DNA of 56,870 nucleotides from the NCBI GenBank assembly GCA_020852815.1, contig JADZAN010000012.1, forward strand, positions 1 through 56,870, read 5' to 3'. The notes below the pieces were generated by a model, which was not told where the DNA came from, did not search any database, and saw only the letters and a program-made list of their open reading frames with translations. The DNA comes from Gemmatimonadaceae bacterium. Its GTDB lineage: Bacteria; Gemmatimonadota; Gemmatimonadetes; Gemmatimonadales; Gemmatimonadaceae. Each line of letters opens with the position of its first letter. Position 1 is the stretch's first letter. Positions 36,734 through 46,957 of this stretch are shown here, in pieces. A program made the position numbers and the translations under genes.

Positions 36734-37111
36734 CTACCTCGGCGCGCCCCCCGACTCCGGCATCGCCACCGTGAGCAGGAAGGTCACCCCCGTCGCACTC
36801 GTCACCGCGTGGCGCACGTGCGCCCCCACCGTCACGATCGAGCCGGGCCCCAGGTCGTAGCCGGTGTCGTCGACCGTGAAGTGCATCGTCCCTTCGATGG
36901 GTTGCACCGTGATGGGGCCGGCCGCCGCGTGCTCGGGGAGCACGCCACCCGGAGCCAGGGAGATGAGCGTGAGGCGCAGCGCCCCGCTCTTGAGGATGGT
37001 GCGGGCGGTGCGGCCGTGCTTGTCGGGAAGGAGCGCGTGCATTTGCGCGTGCTCGTGCTCGAGGTCGAGGACGAGCGCTTCCCCGTCGAGCGGGCGATCG
37101 AGCGATGACAT
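36734..37111 (-). CDS. Single-domain cupin protein
   Basis: A 125-residue cupin with the two conserved motifs: GVLPEHAAAGPITVQPIEGTMHF (G-x5-H-x-H-type, with only one His) and DLGPGSIVTVGAHVRHAV (G-x5-P-x-G-x2-H-x3 type). Its position, 29 bases after the DUF2249 gene on the same strand, suggests it belongs to the reductase cluster. Cupins of this kind occur beside NO-related genes, but a function cannot be assigned. Confidence 0.8.
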   Translation of the reverse strand: MSSLDRPLDGEALVLDLEHEHAQMHALLPDKHGRTARTILKSGALRLTLISLAPGGVLPEHAAAGPITVQPIEGTMHFTVDDTGYDLGPGSIVTVGAHVRHAVTSATGVTFLLTVAMPESGGAPR

Positions 37112-37140: not shown

Positions 37141-37647
37141 TTAGGCCTGCGCGCGCGCAGGGCCCGCGCGCTTGATGAACACGTGCACACGGTTCTCGCC
37201 AAGCTTCTGCACGTCGTACGAGAAGCCCTGCTCTTCCAGTCGCGGCAGGAGCATCATGGGGACGCGCGCGTTGACCTGCACGAGCGTCACCTCGTCGGGG
37301 AGGTCGCGGAGCGCGGCCAGCGTGTACGAGAGCGGCTCCGGCGGCTCCATCCCGCGCACGTCGAGCACAGGCGTTGCGCGATAGAACCAGATCATCCAGT
37401 CGTCAGGCGCCAGTTGCTCGGTGTAGTGCGCCAGGCCGTGCCTCGTCATGACGGAATAGAGCGGGACGGGCTCGAAGATCGCGCGCACGCAGAGCGCCCC
37501 ACCCTCCTGCACCTCGCCCCGTGCCGCCATGAGCCGTGCGAACGGTTCGCGCCCCTGGCGCAGGTCTTCGCGCACATCGCACTCGACGACTTTCGATGGA
37601 TCCACGACTTGCAGCGCCAACGGCAGGTCATCTCGTAACAGGTTCAT
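37141..37647 (-). CDS. Tandem DUF2249 protein
   Basis: A 168-residue protein with two TusA-like DUF2249 units. The first contains [18 protein letters not shown] and LRVIF-type strand [17 protein letters not shown]. The second contains [24 protein letters not shown] and ends NRVHVFIKR. The start is well set: AGGAGGG precedes the ATG, which overlaps the DUF59 stop by four bases (ATGA). DUF2249 genes recur in clusters for nitric oxide or nitrogen-oxide respiration in many bacteria; the biochemical role is not defined. Confidence 0.85.
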
Positions 37648-37946
37648 GGCCGACCCTCCTGGATCAGGCCCGGGTGCCATGCGGGCTCCCACACCAACGT
37701 GGGAACGACGCGCGTGACTCCAGGGACGCGCGAGATCGCCTGGACGATCCCGGACGTGATGTGTGCCCTCATGGGGCAATGGCGTGTCGTGAGGGTATAG
37801 GTGACGCCCACCGCCCCGTCAGCAGCAACAGTGACGTCGTAGACGAGCCCCATCGTGCGCACGTCGAGCCCCACCTCGGGGTCTATCACCGTGGACAGCG
37901 CGTCGAGCACCCCCTGCTCGAGCGCGGTGGGGAGAGGATCACTCAT
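37644..37946 (-). CDS. DUF59/MIP18-type metal-sulfur cluster assembly factor
   Basis: A 100-residue DUF59 protein with [23 protein letters not shown] near the N-terminus and the conserved Cys motif [13 protein letters not shown]. Family members (SufT, PaaD, MIP18) help build or insert Fe-S clusters. Here it sits between an NnrS-like membrane protein and the DUF2249 gene, and may serve the cluster regulator or the Fe-S/cytochrome b fusion protein encoded divergently (inference). Confidence 0.85.
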
Positions 37947-37970: not shown

Positions 37971-39260
37971 TCACGGACGTTTTCTGAAGAGCGCCACCAC
38001 CTGAATGCTGGTCACCAGCGCACCCGCGGCAAAGAGGGCAGCGCCTGTACGAACGCCCAGCGTGATCCCCATGGCGGCGCTGGCGACCAGCACCACGCTC
38101 CCGCTCGCATAGAGCCACGCCGCGCTCCACGCCCCCCGGGCCGAGTAGAGCTCGCCAACCCTGGGCAACGGTCGCGTCCCCGCCAGCGGCCCGAAGCGGT
38201 GATTCCACACCAGGAACGGGACGATCTTGTAGAAGTGCGCGGCCACGAAAGCGCTCACGCTGGTGAGCACCAGCGCCACATACGCCACCTGCACGCGCGG
38301 CGGCGCGAGCCCCGCCACGGTGACGAGCGCAAGCGGCAGCGCAACGCCGAGGCCGGTGAGTGCCACCGCCGCGAGTCGCATCCCCACGTCCAGCGCCTTG
38401 CGGAAGCGATGCGCGTAGTACTCGCGCACCTGCAGGAGAAAGGCAACCACGCCGCTGACGATGAGGACGGCGGGGAGCCAGCGCCCGGCGATGGGGACGT
38501 GATGCAGTACCGCCAGTGCGCCCGCCCCGGCAGCCGTGAGGCGCACCGCCCAGGGCGCGTAGCGATCGCTCCCGCCATGGCTCAGCAGGAACATGGGGAA
38601 GAGGCGCTGCGACACCCCAATGATCGACAGCAGGACCCAGCCGGCCAGCGCGATGTGCAGGTGCGCGCCGAGCGCGATGGGGCGCGCCACGCCCAGGAAG
38701 GCAAGGCGCAGGTTGGCGCTCAGCGCGGCGCCCAGCACCAGCGTCACGACGAGGAAGACCAGCGCGCACGCCAGCGCCAGCCAGAGCGGGTCGCGCGTGG
38801 TGGCTCGGCGCAGCGTGACCGCCGCGTTGGCCACGAACAGCGTCGCCCCCGTCACCAGCGCCACCACCCCCGCCAGGAGCAACGTCTGGCGATCCAGCGC
38901 CAGCCCAACCGTGAAGGCCAGCACCCCCGGGGCATAGCAGGCAAAGCTCACATGGGCCAGGCGCTCCGATGCGATGGGAACGCCCACGGCAACCGGGAGA
39001 AACTGGTACATCGCCCCCATGATGGAGGTCGTGAGCCACCCCAAGGTGACGCAATGGACCACCGCCAGCACCTGGTGCGCCGAATAGCCGCCCACGGCGA
39101 GCATCGGCGCCTGCCACACCGCGCCAACGCCGGCCAACACGAGGAAAACCAGCGCCGTGGCGAAGTGCTCGCCCGGGAGGAGGAAGCGTGGTCCGCTGGT
39201 CACCGAAACTGGAGGCGACACGGGAGCCGATGCGGGTGTCGCTTTGGGAACCGCCGACAC
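37971..39260 (-). CDS. NnrS-like polytopic membrane protein with conserved histidines
   Basis: A 429-residue protein of about 11-12 membrane helices. Histidines lie in predicted helices: HQVLAVVHCVTLGWLTTSIMGAMYQFLP, ALGAHLHIALAGWVLL and AAHFYKIVPFLVWNHRFG. These resemble NnrS and heme-copper subunit I-like proteins seen in denitrification loci. The GTG at 39260 lies just after the SCO stop and gives a natural start, while the ATG at 39311 would overlap SCO by 44 bases. The likely role is NO handling or heme-copper reductase maturation; no direct evidence. Confidence 0.7.
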   Translation of the reverse strand: MSAVPKATPASAPVSPPVSVTSGPRFLLPGEHFATALVFLVLAGVGAVWQAPMLAVGGYSAHQVLAVVHCVTLGWLTTSIMGAMYQFLPVAVGVPIASERLAHVSFACYAPGVLAFTVGLALDRQTLLLAGVVALVTGATLFVANAAVTLRRATTRDPLWLALACALVFLVVTLVLGAALSANLRLAFLGVARPIALGAHLHIALAGWVLLSIIGVSQRLFPMFLLSHGGSDRYAPWAVRLTAAGAGALAVLHHVPIAGRWLPAVLIVSGVVAFLLQVREYYAHRFRKALDVGMRLAAVALTGLGVALPLALVTVAGLAPPRVQVAYVALVLTSVSAFVAAHFYKIVPFLVWNHRFGPLAGTRPLPRVGELYSARGAWSAAWLYASGSVVLVASAAMGITLGVRTGAALFAAGALVTSIQVVALFRKRP

Positions 39261-39267
39261 GCCGCGC

Positions 39268-40200
39268 CTACGGTGTGGCCAGAAGCTCTCGCATGCGGTC
39301 GATCCCTCCATCGAGGCGCGCCGTCAGGCGGCCATTGGCGGCGACGAGGAAGGCCACCGCCGCATGCGAGATGTCGCCGGTGGCTCCGTCACGGGCACGT
39401 CCAATTCCCCATCCATCGAGTACGGCCGTCACCTCGTCCACGCTCCCGCTCAGCACCTTGTCGCCCGCATCCATGCTCCACTGCTTGGCGATGTGCGGGA
39501 GCCGTTCGGGGACGTCGCGCCACGGATCGAGCGTGACGACCACGATGGGCACTTCGCGCGTTGCCTGCGCTCTCGCCTCGCGAAGCTGGTGCACCAGCGT
39601 GGGGCACACGTCGGCACAGTGCGCAAAGGCGAAGGTGACGATGACGGGCGTCCCCTTGGCCTGCGCCAGGTCGAAGCGCCCCCCCGTCTGGTCGGTGAGG
39701 ACCAGCGGCGGCGCCTCGAGGTCGAGGCGCGGCACCGGCTGCGCCGCGGCGTTCACGTCGAAGGCGGCGGGCCCCGCGAGGTCGAGTGCGCCCAGCACCC
39801 GCTGCGCGGCCAGCACGCCCCCCCACGCCAGGGCGCCTAACGTCGACAGCATCGCCACCTTCCCCCACCCGCGCGCGGCCAGCCACGCGAGGTCGCTCCG
39901 CAATGCCTTTCCCCACACGGCCATGAGCGTCCCGATCATCCCGATGGGTTCGCCGATGAGGAGCACCCAGCCGCCCGCCGACGGGAGGCCGGAGCCTACC
40001 GATCCGAAGCAGGCGGCGCGCGTGCGCACCACCCACGCCGGCGGCGCCTGTCCCAACGGCATCAAGGCCAGCGCCCACCACCCGGCAGTGATCACCAGGA
40101 GGAGCGCCAGCGTCACGACCGCGATGCCACGCCCGGGAGTCCTTCCCCGGGCGCGCGCATCGACCGTCGTCTGTTCGAGTGTTGCTACCCGACCTTCCAC
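39268..40200 (-). CDS. SCO1/SenC-type copper chaperone with membrane extension
   Basis: A 310-residue protein. The C-terminal half is a SCO thioredoxin fold with the copper/redox motif FAHCADVCPTLVHQL (two Cys near residue 193) and the distal His in GDISHAAVAF. The N-terminal 130 residues add about three transmembrane segments (VVTLALLLVITAGWWALAL, GGWVLLIGEPIGMIGTLMAVWG, KVAMLSTLGALAWGG), unlike ordinary SCO proteins, which have one. It overlaps the catalytic subunit gene by 16 bases and should deliver copper to CuA or CuB. Confidence 0.9.
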   Translation of the reverse strand: MEGRVATLEQTTVDARARGRTPGRGIAVVTLALLLVITAGWWALALMPLGQAPPAWVVRTRAACFGSVGSGLPSAGGWVLLIGEPIGMIGTLMAVWGKALRSDLAWLAARGWGKVAMLSTLGALAWGGVLAAQRVLGALDLAGPAAFDVNAAAQPVPRLDLEAPPLVLTDQTGGRFDLAQAKGTPVIVTFAFAHCADVCPTLVHQLREARAQATREVPIVVVTLDPWRDVPERLPHIAKQWSMDAGDKVLSGSVDEVTAVLDGWGIGRARDGATGDISHAAVAFLVAANGRLTARLDGGIDRMRELLATP

Positions 40201-41945
40201 AGCACGCTCAGGAGCTTCCAGTTGGTGAAGTAGTACACCACGAACGCCGCGAGGAAGATGCCGACCAGCGCCATGGTCCCCGGCGTCGGCCCGATCCAGC
40301 TCGGGTTCTCGCGATGCAACCGCTCGTTGACCTCATCCACGTTGGCGGGATGCACCGGCGGATTGGTCAACCCCTGCGGCACGCCGGCCACGGCCCGCCC
40401 CGGGACGATCTCCCCCAGCGGCTCACCGAAGAATACCGACTTGACCGCGATCGCGATGAACAGAAGTGCACCGGTCACCGCCATGATCCCGCCAATGCCC
40501 ATCACGGCAAGGACGAGGTCGACGGCCGGGTTGAACTGCACGCTGAACGGCGCCTGCGAGAACGAGATGTCCCAGTGCCGCCGCGGAACCCCGAACGAGC
40601 CGGCAAACGTCATCCCCATGGAGAGCAGGAGCATCCCGATGGCGAAGAGATACGGCTGGATCTTCGCCGCTCCCCAGAACGCAACCTTGCGACGGAAGAC
40701 GAGCGGGAGGAGGTAGTACGTCGCCGCCATGAACGCCATCGCCGTCCCGCTCACCACCGTGGCATGGAAGTGCCCCGGGATGCGCATGGTGTTGTGCGCG
40801 ATGATGTTGATCTGCTCGGTCCCGATGGTCACGCCGGTGATCCCTCCCACGAAACCGAAGACGACGACGGAGAAGACCATGCCGCTGAAGCCCGGGTCGC
40901 CCCACGGCGCGCGCCGCAGCCAGCCAAACAGCCCCTGCGTGTAACCGCGCAGTCGCATCCCGAGCTCCATCCCCGCCGGAACCGTGAAGCCGTGGATCAT
41001 CGACGCCAGCACCGCCATGTACATGAAGTACGACGTGTTCACCACCTTCCACGCCGGCCCGAACCCCGGATCGACCAGGAGATGGTGCGCCGACGCCATG
41101 GAGATGAACAACACGTAGAGCACGAACGCCGAGCGGCTCACCTTCTCGTTGAGCACCACGCCGCCCACGGTAAGCGCCGAGAGCATGTACCACACCGCCA
41201 CCATCGCCGCGACGTTGATCTGCTGCGAGGAGTGACCAAGCGCCCACCAGATCATGCGATAGATCTGCGGATCGACCGACTTGATCACGCCGATGGACCA
41301 GAGGAAGGTCGGGATGTAGATGATGGCACCGTGCAGGAGCGTGATCACGGCGATGATCGCCGCGGTCATTGCGCCGTACACCACCAGCGGCAGCGACCCC
41401 TCATACGTCTTCTCGCGCTTGGCGATCACCAGCGTGGCAAAGAACTGCGCCACGACCAGCAGCGCCCCAACCGCGAACAGGATGATGCCAAGGTAGAAGA
41501 TCGGGTGCGCCTTGAGCGGCGGATACGATGTGAAGAGGACGTCGGCCTTGCCACTCCACTGCATCCACTCGACCAGGATCGTCCCCAGGAGCATCAACCC
41601 GAAGTTCACCCACCCCAGTTTGGGATTGGCCGGCCGCGCATTGAGCAGCGCGGTCGAGGTGAACCAGAGCACCGCCATCTCGAAGTAGATGATGAAGAAG
41701 ATGAGCATGTTCATCCCGTGCACCCCGAGGATGCGGTAGTACCACACCGCGGGGAGGAGATGCACGGCCTGCCAGCGCGTGAGCACCAGCAGGAGGGCCG
41801 CGATCGCGCCAATGAGGAGCGAGACGACGGCGACGACGGCGTTGGCCTTGACGAGCGCCTCTGCCTGACGATGGATGCGGCGGCCGGTGAACGCGCAGGT
41901 ACGGAACGCGTCGGCCGCGCCGGATGCTGTCAGCGTGGCGCTCAT
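40185..41945 (-). CDS. Heme-copper reductase catalytic subunit lacking the active-site Tyr (probable NO reductase)
   Basis: A 586-residue subunit I with about 13-14 helices and B-family (ba3-like) character. Low-spin heme His is H76 (LGVHGMNM), the CuB histidines are H238 (WWALGHSSQQ) and H287-H288 (AHHLLVDPG), and the heme pair is H392/H394 (IPGHFHATV). Oxygen reductases have GHPxxY here, with the Tyr cross-linked to His; position 242 is Gln. Heme-copper NO reductases lack that Tyr, so NO is the favoured substrate. GGAG lies eight bases before ATG. The gene overlaps the CuA gene by four bases. Confidence 0.9.
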   Translation of the reverse strand: MSATLTASGAADAFRTCAFTGRRIHRQAEALVKANAVVAVVSLLIGAIAALLLVLTRWQAVHLLPAVWYYRILGVHGMNMLIFFIIYFEMAVLWFTSTALLNARPANPKLGWVNFGLMLLGTILVEWMQWSGKADVLFTSYPPLKAHPIFYLGIILFAVGALLVVAQFFATLVIAKREKTYEGSLPLVVYGAMTAAIIAVITLLHGAIIYIPTFLWSIGVIKSVDPQIYRMIWWALGHSSQQINVAAMVAVWYMLSALTVGGVVLNEKVSRSAFVLYVLFISMASAHHLLVDPGFGPAWKVVNTSYFMYMAVLASMIHGFTVPAGMELGMRLRGYTQGLFGWLRRAPWGDPGFSGMVFSVVVFGFVGGITGVTIGTEQINIIAHNTMRIPGHFHATVVSGTAMAFMAATYYLLPLVFRRKVAFWGAAKIQPYLFAIGMLLLSMGMTFAGSFGVPRRHWDISFSQAPFSVQFNPAVDLVLAVMGIGGIMAVTGALLFIAIAVKSVFFGEPLGEIVPGRAVAGVPQGLTNPPVHPANVDEVNERLHRENPSWIGPTPGTMALVGIFLAAFVVYYFTNWKLLSVLWKVG

Positions 41946-42547
41946 GGGGTGGCTCCGTTGCCCAGGCGGGCGTTGGCGTTGTCACTCACGCGTTGGCCCG
42001 CCTTGTCGAGCACGATCACGCGTCCCACCATCGTGTGGTGGCCAATACCGCAGAACTCGTTGCAGATGATGCGGAAGTCACCCGAGGCCGTGGGCGTCAC
42101 CTCGAGCGCGTAGTCGTAGCCGGGAACGATCTGGAAGTTCACGTTCAGCGGATACAGGCTGAAGCCGTGGTTCACGTCCAGCGCCGACAGGTGCAAACGG
42201 TACGTCTCGCCCTGCGTGAGCTGCAGGATGGGATACCACTGGAAGGTGAGCGCGGTCATGTACACGTCGCTCCCAGCCGGCGGCTGCACGATGGGGAGCC
42301 CGCGGTCGGTCCCCACCTGGTATTGCTTGGCAAACTCCTGCGTGCGGGCATAGAACGCCCGCGGCTCCACCCGGCGCCTGATCCCCGACGGGTTCTGCCC
42401 GCCGCGCCAGTGCCACAGCGGCATCATGGCAAACAGCACCATGCACCAGGCGAAGGCAATCGCCACCCACACCTTCTCGGCCTTGTGCGCCGGCTTCCAC
42501 CATACGCCGGGGGCCGCATCCAGTCCGGTATGAACCTTGGTCAGCAT
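41942..42547 (-). CDS. CuA-containing heme-copper reductase subunit II
   Basis: A 201-residue subunit with one N-terminal membrane anchor (KVWVAIAFAWCMVLFAMMPLW) and a periplasmic cupredoxin domain. The complete CuA ligand set is present: H127 (DVNHGFSL), then C162-x3-C166-x3-H170-x2-M173 in CNEFCGIGHHTM. This indicates electron entry from a cytochrome c or cupredoxin. A strong GAGGGGAG site precedes the ATG and overlaps the stop of the small subunit upstream. Classical cNOR and qNOR lack CuA; B-family-derived NO reductases and oxidases have it. Confidence 0.92.
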   Translation of the reverse strand: MLTKVHTGLDAAPGVWWKPAHKAEKVWVAIAFAWCMVLFAMMPLWHWRGGQNPSGIRRRVEPRAFYARTQEFAKQYQVGTDRGLPIVQPPAGSDVYMTALTFQWYPILQLTQGETYRLHLSALDVNHGFSLYPLNVNFQIVPGYDYALEVTPTASGDFRIICNEFCGIGHHTMVGRVIVLDKAGQRVSDNANARLGNGATP

Positions 42548-42554
42548 GCTCCCC

Positions 42555-42719
42555 TCACGGTAAGGTGCCTTGCGGCATCGACAGGATCTCCCACATCCCC
42601 CACCCGGTGTAGACGATGAACATCACGACGATGCCAAGCGCCAGCAGCAGGAACACATTGTCGAAGAGCCGCTGCATCAAGGGCGGCGACTCGTCAGGCG
42701 GTGACGCATGATCGGACAC
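42555..42719 (-). CDS. 54-residue single-helix membrane subunit
   Basis: A tiny gene between the regulator and the CuA subunit starting at GTG. It encodes an acidic, Pro-rich N-terminus (SDHASPPDESPP), one transmembrane helix (NVFLLLALGIVVMFIVYTGWGMW) and a short tail. Size and position match the subunit IIa-type helix that replaces the missing second helix of subunit II in ba3-like oxidases. The stop lies seven bases before the CuA start. An in-frame ATG at MQRLFDN is an alternative start. Confidence 0.7.
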   Translation of the reverse strand: MSDHASPPDESPPLMQRLFDNVFLLLALGIVVMFIVYTGWGMWEILSMPQGTLP

Positions 42720-42754: not shown

Positions 42755-43387
42755 CTAGCCACGGCGCGTGCGCGTGGCGGGAGACTGCTTCACGGCGGCC
42801 TGCTTCGCGGACGCCCGCGCGGCAGGCGACTGCTTCGAGGGGGTGGTCTTGGAGGGGGATGACCTGGCGGCAGCCTTCTTCGCGCCGGCGCGCGACGCCG
42901 CCGGCACACCGGGCGTGGGGCCGCGCGTGGGGACACGATGCTCGTGCAACGCGAGGTCGTGCCGCGGCGCCATGGCCGGCTGCTCGGCGATCTCGCCCAG
43001 CAGGTCGGCGATCGTCGTGCGCCGGAAGAACTCGCGCTGCGCATGCGAGATGGCCTCCCAGCGCGGATGCGCCGAGCAGGGGTTCTTCCAGCCGCAACTC
43101 GTGCGCCCCAGGATGCACTTGCTCTCCTCGACGTCGTCGAAGGGAGCGGCCACATCGCCCAGCGTGAGGTCGCGCGCCGCGCGTGCAAGGCGAAAGCCGC
43201 CGCGCGGACCGCGCCCGGATGTGAGCACCCCCGCGCGCGCGAGAGCATGCAGCGTCTTCGAGAGATAGTTGCGCGGAACGCGCAGGTCGGCGGCAATGGC
43301 GTCGACCGGCACGGGATAGTTGGTCCCATGTTCGGCGACGTACAAGACCGCGCGCAAGGCGTATTGCGTGGTGCTGCTCAGCGGCAT
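42755..43387 (-). CDS. Rrf2-family (NsrR/IscR-like) Fe-S transcriptional regulator
   Basis: A 210-residue regulator. The Rrf2 winged-helix domain fills residues 1-85 (TTQYALRAVLYVAEHG, LRVPRNYLSKTLHALARAGVL, GRGPRGGFRLAR). Three cysteines, C91, C98 and C104 (CILGRTSCGWKNPC), sit where IscR and NsrR bind their cluster. A Lys/Ala/Ser/Pro-rich C-terminal tail of about 55 residues is unusual and looks histone H1-like. It is divergent from the cytochrome b fusion gene with an inverted repeat between them. NO sensing is inferred. Confidence 0.88.
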   Translation of the reverse strand: MPLSSTTQYALRAVLYVAEHGTNYPVPVDAIAADLRVPRNYLSKTLHALARAGVLTSGRGPRGGFRLARAARDLTLGDVAAPFDDVEESKCILGRTSCGWKNPCSAHPRWEAISHAQREFFRRTTIADLLGEIAEQPAMAPRHDLALHEHRVPTRGPTPGVPAASRAGAKKAAARSSPSKTTPSKQSPAARASAKQAAVKQSPATRTRRG

Positions 43388-43459: not shown

Positions 43460-43481
43460 TTTATCATGTGAATATGATAAA
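43460..43481. promoter_or_regulatory. Perfect inverted repeat, probable Rrf2 operator
   Basis: TTTATCAT-N6-ATGATAAA, eight-base perfect arms in an AT-rich island of a GC-rich region. It lies 73 bases upstream of the regulator start and about 30 bases upstream of the divergent operon. The size and dyad symmetry fit an Rrf2-family dimer site. It could control both operons and itself. It differs from the TTGAT-N4-ATCAA FNR/DNR box. Confidence 0.7.
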
Positions 43482-45129: not shown

Positions 45130-45788
45130 GCCCCACTCCCGCCCGCGCGGTCGCCGTCGGTGCCGCCAGCGTCCTCTTTCTCGTCGCCCTGCGCGCCGCC
45201 TCCTTCATCCCCACCACCGATGCGCGCGGCGACTCGGCGTGGGTGCGCCTGAGTTGGAGCGCGCGCCCGGAGCGCGTGGAGCATTGTCGCCGCCTCTCGG
45301 ACGAGGAGCTGGAAGCGCGGCCTGCGCACATGCGCCTTCGCTTCGAGTGCGAGGGGCGCTTTGCGCGCTACGAATTGCGACTGACGGTTGACGATTCCGT
45401 CGCCGTGCGCGACGTGGTGCAGGGCGACGGGCTGCGCCACGACCGCCCCATGCACGTGCTGCGCGAGCACGCGCTCCGCCCCGGCGAGCGGCACCTGCTG
45501 GTCACGCTCGCTCGCCTGGACTCGGCCACCGCCACGGCGCAGGACTCCATTGCCGGGACCACCGGCGTCACCGGCGAGCAAGTGCGCCCGGGCGCTGAGT
45601 CGGACACCGTGCTGGGTGAACGCGAGGGGCGGGAGCGGGAGGAACGCGCCCGCCGGGCCGCCGAGTCGATTCCGGCGCGCCTTTCGCTCGACACCACGAT
45701 TACACTTGGGGCGGGGCGCGTCGTCCTCGTCACGTACGACGGCGCGCGCCGCGTGCTCGTGGCGCGGACCGGGAGTGCGAGCCCGTGA
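45126..45788 (+). CDS. Membrane-anchored protein of unknown function
   Basis: A 220-residue protein. An N-terminal anchor (AVAVGAASVLFLVALRAASF) is followed by a soluble extracytoplasmic part with paired cysteines (VEHCRR, FECEG) and two beta-rich stretches (RYELRLTVDDSVAVRDVV, ITLGAGRVVLVTYDGARRVLV). A charged Glu/Arg segment joins them. It overlaps the fusion gene (ATGA, with AAGGAGGGGAG upstream) and the heme A synthase gene (GTGA). Such tight coupling implies a role in the same complex or its assembly. No family recognised. Confidence 0.8.
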   Translation: MSPTPARAVAVGAASVLFLVALRAASFIPTTDARGDSAWVRLSWSARPERVEHCRRLSDEELEARPAHMRLRFECEGRFARYELRLTVDDSVAVRDVVQGDGLRHDRPMHVLREHALRPGERHLLVTLARLDSATATAQDSIAGTTGVTGEQVRPGAESDTVLGEREGREREERARRAAESIPARLSLDTTITLGAGRVVLVTYDGARRVLVARTGSASP

Positions 45789-46957
45789 CCTCGATCCGTC
45801 CCTCGATCGACTCCGCGCCCGGCGTTGCGCACACACCGTGGCGCACGACCAGCGTTGAAGACATCGACGTGACCTACATCCCCTCTGCCGCCAACGATCG
45901 CGCCGTGAGGCGGTGGCTGTATGCCACCATGTTGTCCGTCCTCGCCGTCCTCGTCGTCGGCGGGATCACGCGACTCACCGAGAGCGGGCTTTCGATCACC
46001 GTCTGGAAGCCCATCACCGGCGTCCTCCCCCCGCTCTCCGAGTCGGCGTGGGAGCATGCGTTCGCGCAGTACCAGCAGATCCCCGAGGCGCAGACCGTTC
46101 ACGCCGGAATCACGCTCCAGAAGTTCAAGTCGCTCTTCTTCTGGGAGTGGGCGCACCGCCTGGTGGCGCGCCTGGTGGGGCTCGTCATCGCCGTTCCGTT
46201 CTTCGTCTTGTTGCTGCGCGGGCGCATTCGCCCGTCGCTGCGGCTGCGCATGGCCAACCTGCCGCTCCTCGTCACGTTGCAGGGGGCCATGGGGTGGTAC
46301 ATGGTGCAGAGCGGGCTGTCGGAGCGGACTTCGGTGTCGCAGTACCGCCTAACGGCACACCTGGCGCTGGCCGTCGTCATCTATGTCGTGGCGGCGTGGA
46401 CCGCCTTTCGTCTGCTTCCCGCCAGCGAGGGCGACGCCGCGGCCACCGATCACACCGAACCCAACGGCGGCGCGCTGGCGCTCTCGGCGCTCGTCTTCGT
46501 CGTCATTCTCAGTGGCGGATTCGTGGCCGGGCTCGATGCGGGGCTGGTGTACAACACCTTCCCGCTGATGGGGGGGAGCGTACTTCCGCCCACGTATGGC
46601 GACCTGACGCCGATGTGGCGCAACTGGTTCGAGAACCCGGCCGCGGTGCAGTTCCATCACCGCACGCTCGCGCTCGTGACGCTTGGGCTCGCGCTCTGGT
46701 ATGCGTGGCGGCGCCGGTCGGCGCTCGCCGACGCCAAGGCGCGTCAAGCGTGGGGCTTCGTGCAGCTGGCGGCGGCGGTGCAGGTGTCGCTGGGGGTGGC
46801 GACGCTTCTGCTTCACGTCCCGATATCGCTGGCGGCGCTGCACCAGGCTGGGGCGCTGGGGTTGCTGACGGCGACGCTGTATGCGGGGGCGCGGGATGGG
46901 GTGGCGGTACCGCGTGCCGCCCGCACTACCGCTATCGAGGGCGCCGCGGCCAATTGA
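45785..46957 (+). CDS. ctaA: Heme A synthase (CtaA/COX15 type)
   Basis: A 390-residue membrane protein with eight predicted helices. COX15/CtaA signatures are GGITRLTESGLSITVWKPITG, FFWEWAHRLVARLVG, LTAHLALAV, VQFHHRTLALV and LAALHQAGALG, giving the heme-ligand histidines. It converts heme O to heme A. Its presence in the operon suggests that the neighbouring reductase uses an A-type heme, whereas cNOR and qNOR use heme b. The GTG start overlaps the previous stop by four bases. No ctaB (heme O synthase) lies in the window. Confidence 0.9.
   Translation: MTSIRPSIDSAPGVAHTPWRTTSVEDIDVTYIPSAANDRAVRRWLYATMLSVLAVLVVGGITRLTESGLSITVWKPITGVLPPLSESAWEHAFAQYQQIPEAQTVHAGITLQKFKSLFFWEWAHRLVARLVGLVIAVPFFVLLLRGRIRPSLRLRMANLPLLVTLQGAMGWYMVQSGLSERTSVSQYRLTAHLALAVVIYVVAAWTAFRLLPASEGDAAATDHTEPNGGALALSALVFVVILSGGFVAGLDAGLVYNTFPLMGGSVLPPTYGDLTPMWRNWFENPAAVQFHHRTLALVTLGLALWYAWRRRSALADAKARQAWGFVQLAAAVQVSLGVATLLLHVPISLAALHQAGALGLLTATLYAGARDGVAVPRAARTTAIEGAAAN

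Follow-up and report, generated by a model that had tools for sequence, protein, structure and literature searches.

Heme-copper reductases can be told apart by the residue at the position of the active-site Tyr. According to a published residue table (PMC8756737, Table A4), this position holds Tyr in oxygen reductases, Glu in cNOR and qNOR, Asn in sNOR and in CuA-NOR (bNOR), Asp in gNOR, and Gln in eNOR. That paper treats the Gln as the diagnostic of eNOR and indicates that many eNOR genes are apparently misannotated as cytochrome c oxidase. The eNOR is related to the B family and counts among the four nitric oxide (NO) reductase families listed as biochemically characterised (PMC11388526). 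Here, we analyse a gene cluster on a 56,870-nucleotide stretch of DNA from a Gemmatimonadaceae bacterium (contig JADZAN010000012.1, positions 1 to 56,870; hereafter, the window). The cluster encodes a heme-copper subunit I with Gln242 at the Tyr position and a cupredoxin subunit II. As judged from its residues and its relatives, the enzyme is very likely a Gemmatimonadota member of the known family eNOR, derived from the B family (ba3-like).

The window enzyme shares with eNOR the Gln at the Tyr position, the six His ligands, the cupredoxin/CuA subunit II, and the B-family fold, and we find no difference that distinguishes the two. What we did not find described in the eNOR literature is the genetic context, which consists of a cytochrome b/ferredoxin/FlpD gene, an Rrf2 gene, and a palindrome. 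The bNOR of Bacillus azotoformans is likewise derived from the B family and carries CuA, but its residue at the Tyr position is Asn (PMC8756737), and bNOR is reported from Bacillota only (PMC11388526). The ba3 oxidase of Thermus thermophilus is ~25–27% identical over the whole fold and also has the SU-IIa single helix, CuA, and part of the K-channel. However, it has the cross-linked Tyr237, a Trp at the position of N244, and Thr312 at the position of H318. The cNOR and qNOR belong to the same superfamily and would catalyse the same reaction as the window enzyme, but they are related to the C family, use an active-site Glu, and have no CuA subunit, whereas the window enzyme has Gln242 and a full CuA subunit.

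Subunit I matches PF00115 (COX1) with 208 bits (cut-off, 34.8). Translation and alignment confirm the six heme/CuB His residues (H76, H238, H287, H288, H392, and H394) that an earlier reading of the DNA, made from the letters alone (the original prediction), had claimed. The sequence around the helix VI ligand is H238-S-S-Q-Q242, and in the phmmer alignment to T. thermophilus ba3 (E ~1e-51) Q242 pairs with the cross-linked Tyr237, in accordance with the replacement of Tyr by Gln that had been proposed. Homology searches retrieved 115 subunit I sequences of the Gln type, spread over many phyla, and 29 B-family sequences of the Tyr type. In the Gln-type set, H238, Q241, Q242, N244 (giving QQxN), H287, H288, H392, H318 on helix VIII, and E89 on helix II are all invariant; H394 is invariant save for Lys in two T. 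thermophilus plasmid sequences. The Tyr-type rows show V at the position of Q241, Y at that of Q242 (in every one of the 29 rows), W at that of N244, and T at that of H318. With Gln in 115/115 homologues and Tyr in 29/29 others, Q242 is neither chance nor a sequencing error. Because such a Gln is the signature published for eNOR, the protein is an eNOR by the residue rule, and assignments to sNOR, bNOR, cNOR/qNOR, or the oxygen reductases fail at residue 242. The proposed descent from the B family, loss of the active-site Tyr, and retention of CuA are all borne out, but the window enzyme falls to the named family eNOR and not to CuA-NOR in the strict sense (bNOR), which carries Asn.

A cross-linked Tyr might also come from elsewhere in the fold. 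In cbb3 enzymes, it sits on another helix, six residues ahead of the His-His pair. This position has no Tyr in subunit I, where it is taken by I281, six residues ahead of H287, an outcome in favour of the original prediction; the cbb3 proteins of the same genome (L002 and L003) do carry Tyr there.

The best sequence relatives of subunit I in the PDB, and thus its closest solved relatives, are ba3-type B-family oxidases, in agreement with the proposed B-family descent; a PDB sequence search with subunit I returns no cNOR or qNOR chain at E 1e-3. In a maximum-likelihood tree of 60 rows, which contains no sNOR, bNOR, gNOR, nNOR, or archaeal eNOR references, a branch supported at 100/100 separates all 34 Gln rows from 25 Tyr rows. 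The enzyme is thus not placed inside the canonical ba3 oxidases, which likewise favours the original prediction. The window subunit I groups with Gemmatimonadota sequences, and the Gln-type clade also holds Thermus, Thermomicrobia, Accumulibacter, and proteobacterial enzymes. The tree is rooted on an A-family protein (L001), and a very long branch makes this rooting unreliable. Tyr-type ba3 oxidases also occur in Gemmatimonadota (~28–36% identity), and the Gln-type enzymes group apart from these as well; therefore, the Gln type is more than the local form of ba3.

The AlphaFold model of subunit I has a mean predicted local distance difference test score (pLDDT) of 74.8 and a predicted template modelling score of 0.81, with pLDDT below 50 in the stretch 373–389. 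In Foldseek, the model best matches ba3 chains (template modelling score 0.70–0.76 over the query). VIA-align superimposes it on ba3 chains over ~460–490 residues at Z ~31, with ba3 and A-family oxidases tied (Z ~31–33). No NO reductase chain is among the structure matches listed, which by itself proves nothing.

Several homologues depart from these patterns. The two T. thermophilus plasmid enzymes (L039:9821-11506 and L040:7821-9503) have Lys in place of the H394-equivalent low-spin heme ligand on helix X (GHFK); their neighbours are multicopper oxidase, cytochrome c, Rrf2, and DUF542 genes, and in L039 a cytochrome P460 gene as well. A divergent eNOR subunit I from the same phylum as the window (L139, genome G203), 42% identical to the query, sits close to the Thermus sequences at the end of a long branch. 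Haloarchaeal plasmid matches (L041, L042, L048, and L049), considered as archaeal eNOR, were rejected, as all of them have Tyr and are of the ba3 type. Burkholderiales genomes searched for sNOR/bNOR anchors yielded eNOR, Tyr-type ba3, and a pair of odd, ligand-poor homologues, and nothing else. The divergent COX1-like proteins L172:2018-3709 and L173:3308-5077, from Burkholderiales genomes that also have eNOR, keep the Tyr (HNMHY) but carry Tyr at two ligand positions as well, that of one CuB His (YH instead of HH) and that of the high-spin heme His (GYFH instead of GHFH).

Subunit II carries the full CuA site that had been read from the sequence, with H127 followed by C162-NEF-C166-GIG-H170-HT-M173; all five ligands are in place and are unvaried across 113 subunit II sequences. 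Residue E24 of subunit II aligns with the Glu at the K-channel entrance of ba3 subunit II and is present in 112 of the 113. In addition to E24, the ba3 K-channel residues corresponding to Y253, S315, and T321 (T or S) are retained. In contrast, Y244 of ba3 is changed to V249, T312 to the invariant H318, and the position of Y133 is F, M, or Y. One proton channel is predicted for eNOR (PMC8756737), and the residue pattern is compatible with such a single channel, without proving it. The 54-residue, one-helix protein encoded next to subunit II corresponds to the SU-IIa type of B-family oxidases described in PMC8780969. The original prediction treated 40185–42719 as a two-subunit pair; subunits I and II are there, but the range includes this third gene as well.

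In the mechanism that we propose, a periplasmic donor (cytochrome c or a cupredoxin) would deliver electrons to CuA of subunit II, from which they would pass to the low-spin heme (H76/H394) and on to the high-spin heme (H392) and CuB (H238, H287, and H288). In oxidases, the cross-linked Tyr supplies an electron for O2 splitting; without the Tyr, the site would couple two NO molecules to nitrous oxide (N2O) and water. The protons probably come from the cytoplasm through the remodelled K-channel.

Besides the eNOR, the COX1 family is represented in the genome by an A-family aa3, a CcoN-CcoO fusion, a CcoN-like protein that carries the cbb3 Tyr, and a weak split match, and no recognisable cNOR or qNOR is found among these matches. 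The genome encodes NirK (371.6 bits; cut-off, 296.3) and clade II NosZ (923.9 bits; cut-off, 625); a match to the cytochrome-d1 (NirS) domain is marginal. With NirK and NosZ present and no cNOR or qNOR recognised, eNOR is the sole candidate for a respiratory NO reductase. With NO as its presumed substrate, it would bridge NirK (nitrite to NO) and NosZ (N2O to N2) by filling the step from NO to N2O.

Across the phylum, eNOR is present in 84 of 395 Gemmatimonadota genomes. NirK is found in 22/84 genomes with eNOR and 32/311 without it (odds ratio 3.1, P 0.0005, kinship ignored), and NosZ in 42/84 and 89/311, respectively (odds ratio 2.5, P 0.0004, kinship likewise ignored). All three occur together in ten sampled genomes, that of the window included, and in four genomes (G166, G167, G217, and G238) NirK is <6 kb from eNOR. 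Standard annotation labels such enzymes cytochrome oxidases (here, the family matches are CtaD/COX1 only, and the plasmid enzymes are called 'cbb3-type'), so a genome of this kind may be scored as having nir and N2O reductase and no NO reductase. The label thus affects which soil bacteria are regarded as complete denitrifiers, or as sources or sinks of N2O. In a 2025 survey that included eNOR, 13% of Gemmatimonadota are still among the genomes with nir and nosZ and without nor (PMC12569097).

Some points weigh against reading the enzyme as an eNOR that works between NirK and NosZ. Membership of eNOR is derived from the published residue rule and from the lineages in the clade, in a tree that does not include the named Rhodothermus and Natronomonas eNOR references. 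Three Tyr residues (Tyr277, Tyr306, and Tyr309) are specific to the Gln clade, none of them at a known cross-link position. Finally, 30 of the 84 eNOR genomes of the phylum have neither NirK nor NosZ; therefore, in some of them eNOR may serve detoxification or another role.

The last point bears on a sub-case of the eNOR assignment, namely that the enzyme mainly removes toxic NO under micro-oxic conditions rather than respiring it. The existence of such genomes, the adjoining Rrf2 Fe-S regulator, and the hemerythrin or DUF542 neighbours at other eNOR loci are in its favour, but NirK and NosZ in the window genome fit respiration. We regard a mainly detoxifying enzyme as possible, although the less probable emphasis, and the two roles are mutually compatible.

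We consider it improbable that the enzyme is a high-affinity B-family oxygen reductase in which a residue other than the lost cross-linked Tyr acts as electron donor. The metal ligands, CuA, and SCO are all kept, as in oxidases, the clade has several conserved Tyr residues, including the three mentioned above, and an O2-reductase role has been argued for the sNOR of Nitrosomonas europaea from transcript data (PMC6967387). However, Tyr is found at neither known cross-link position, aa3 and cbb3 oxidases are already encoded in the genome, and the family is enriched with NirK/NosZ and at times located near NirK. In addition, PMC11388526 counts eNOR among the characterised NO reductases. That the enzyme is an sNOR of the norSY-senC type, an idea first suggested by its II-I-SCO gene order, which resembles the cluster of cupredoxin subunit II, subunit I, and SenC/SCO (norSY and senC) in ammonia oxidisers, is so improbable that we dropped it, because the published residue table gives sNOR Asn where the window enzyme has Gln (PMC8756737); moreover, the membrane protein encoded 3' of SCO is not conserved next to Gln-type enzymes.

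For the specialist, the surprise is less the eNOR itself than its near-obligate genetic partner and private operator. The partner, P0006, is a fusion of an N-terminal cytochrome b domain, two 4Fe-4S motifs, and FlpD; its actual start codon probably lies further downstream than the GTG that is listed. Among its 58 homologues, four His and eleven Cys residues are invariant, eight of these Cys being 4Fe-4S ligands, and one more Cys is nearly so. In the phylum, the fusion is found in 79 of the 84 eNOR genomes and in 3 of the 311 others (Fisher P 7e-73, kinship ignored). It is also near eNOR in 62 of the 80 named eNOR loci in which we counted neighbours, across several phyla. Its orientation is divergent from eNOR in Gemmatimonadota; in Pseudomonadota, it is downstream on the same strand, mostly 2–5 kb off. 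Genome G203, the source of the divergent L139 eNOR, has no such partner. A limited literature search turned up no earlier description of the link between eNOR and the fusion.

As to its role, electron feed or a link to cytoplasmic Fe-S proteins would be a guess. We put forward only tentatively that the fusion is a dedicated eNOR partner, a membrane module for electron transfer that would feed the NO reductase or connect the quinone pool to a cytoplasmic Fe-S/flavin partner by electron exchange, that one operator co-regulates the two, and that eNOR belongs to a more extensive respiratory complex or pathway as yet undescribed. A single-sequence model of the fusion has a pLDDT of 43 and is unusable.

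The eNOR operon is headed by an Rrf2-family gene, whose C-x6-C-x5-C motif is conserved. Between this gene and P0006 is the palindrome TTTATCAT-N6-ATGATAAA, with perfect 8-bp arms; the number expected by chance in the window is 0. Allowing for up to two mismatches, the 20-base palindrome core occurs nowhere else in the 5.4 Mb genome. Most of the closest relatives (e.g., L008–L014, L021, L025, and L063) also carry the palindrome upstream of eNOR, sometimes in degenerate form, and we found no literature on a palindrome between the fusion gene and an Rrf2-led eNOR operon. This arrangement suggests one dedicated operator for both transcription units, on which Rrf2 would probably govern the eNOR operon and the divergent cytochrome b/ferredoxin/FlpD gene jointly. 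By family resemblance, the signal sensed by the regulator may be NO. The partner and the single-site operator offer concrete starting points for studying the electron supply and the control of eNOR.

Table 1 Features of the eNOR locus and its surroundings in the window.
Feature	Coordinates	Strand	Remarks
eNOR subunit I (heme-copper subunit)	40185-41945	-	586 aa; six ligand His, Gln242 replacing Tyr; eNOR-specific H318 and E89
eNOR subunit II, cupredoxin with full CuA site	41942-42547	-	H127, C162, C166, H170, M173
Single-helix small subunit, SU-IIa-like	42555-42719	-	54 aa, GTG start
SCO1/SenC copper chaperone	39268-40200	-	CADVC motif, N-terminal extension
Rrf2-family Fe-S regulator, first operon gene	42755-43387	-	C-ILGRTS-C-GWKNP-C
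Palindrome TTTATCAT-N6-ATGATAAA, 8-bp arms, probable operator	43460-43481	no strand	between divergent transcription units
Cytochrome b (N-terminal)/two 4Fe-4S/FlpD fusion, P0006	43468-45129	+	from domain matches
CtaA heme A synthase	45785-46957	+	heme supply possible
COX1-like protein with 12 transmembrane segments	37971-39311	-	likely in the eNOR operon here
FeS_assembly_P gene	37644-37946	-	3' of eNOR operon, same strand
DUF2249 gene	37141-37647	-	3' of eNOR operon, same strand
Cupin gene	36734-37111	-	3' of eNOR operon, same strand

Within the operon (Table 1), the genes of subunits II and I overlap by four bases, and the SCO1/SenC gene overlaps the end of the subunit I gene. In the 80 named loci, eNOR is adjoined by the single-helix small subunit in 75 and by SCO1/SenC in 54, and CtaA is near it in 16. 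We also considered the four genes that trail the SCO1/SenC gene (12-transmembrane-segment protein, FeS_assembly_P, DUF2249, and cupin) as parts of the system and rejected them. The first has no homologue beside the other eNOR genes of these loci, and for the trailing genes as a whole the loci give one FeS_assembly_P match and one DUF2249 match only. As their homologues are almost never near eNOR, the trailing genes are not core. The 12-transmembrane-segment protein gives a sub-threshold COX1 match (20 bits) and is encoded in a single copy in the genome.

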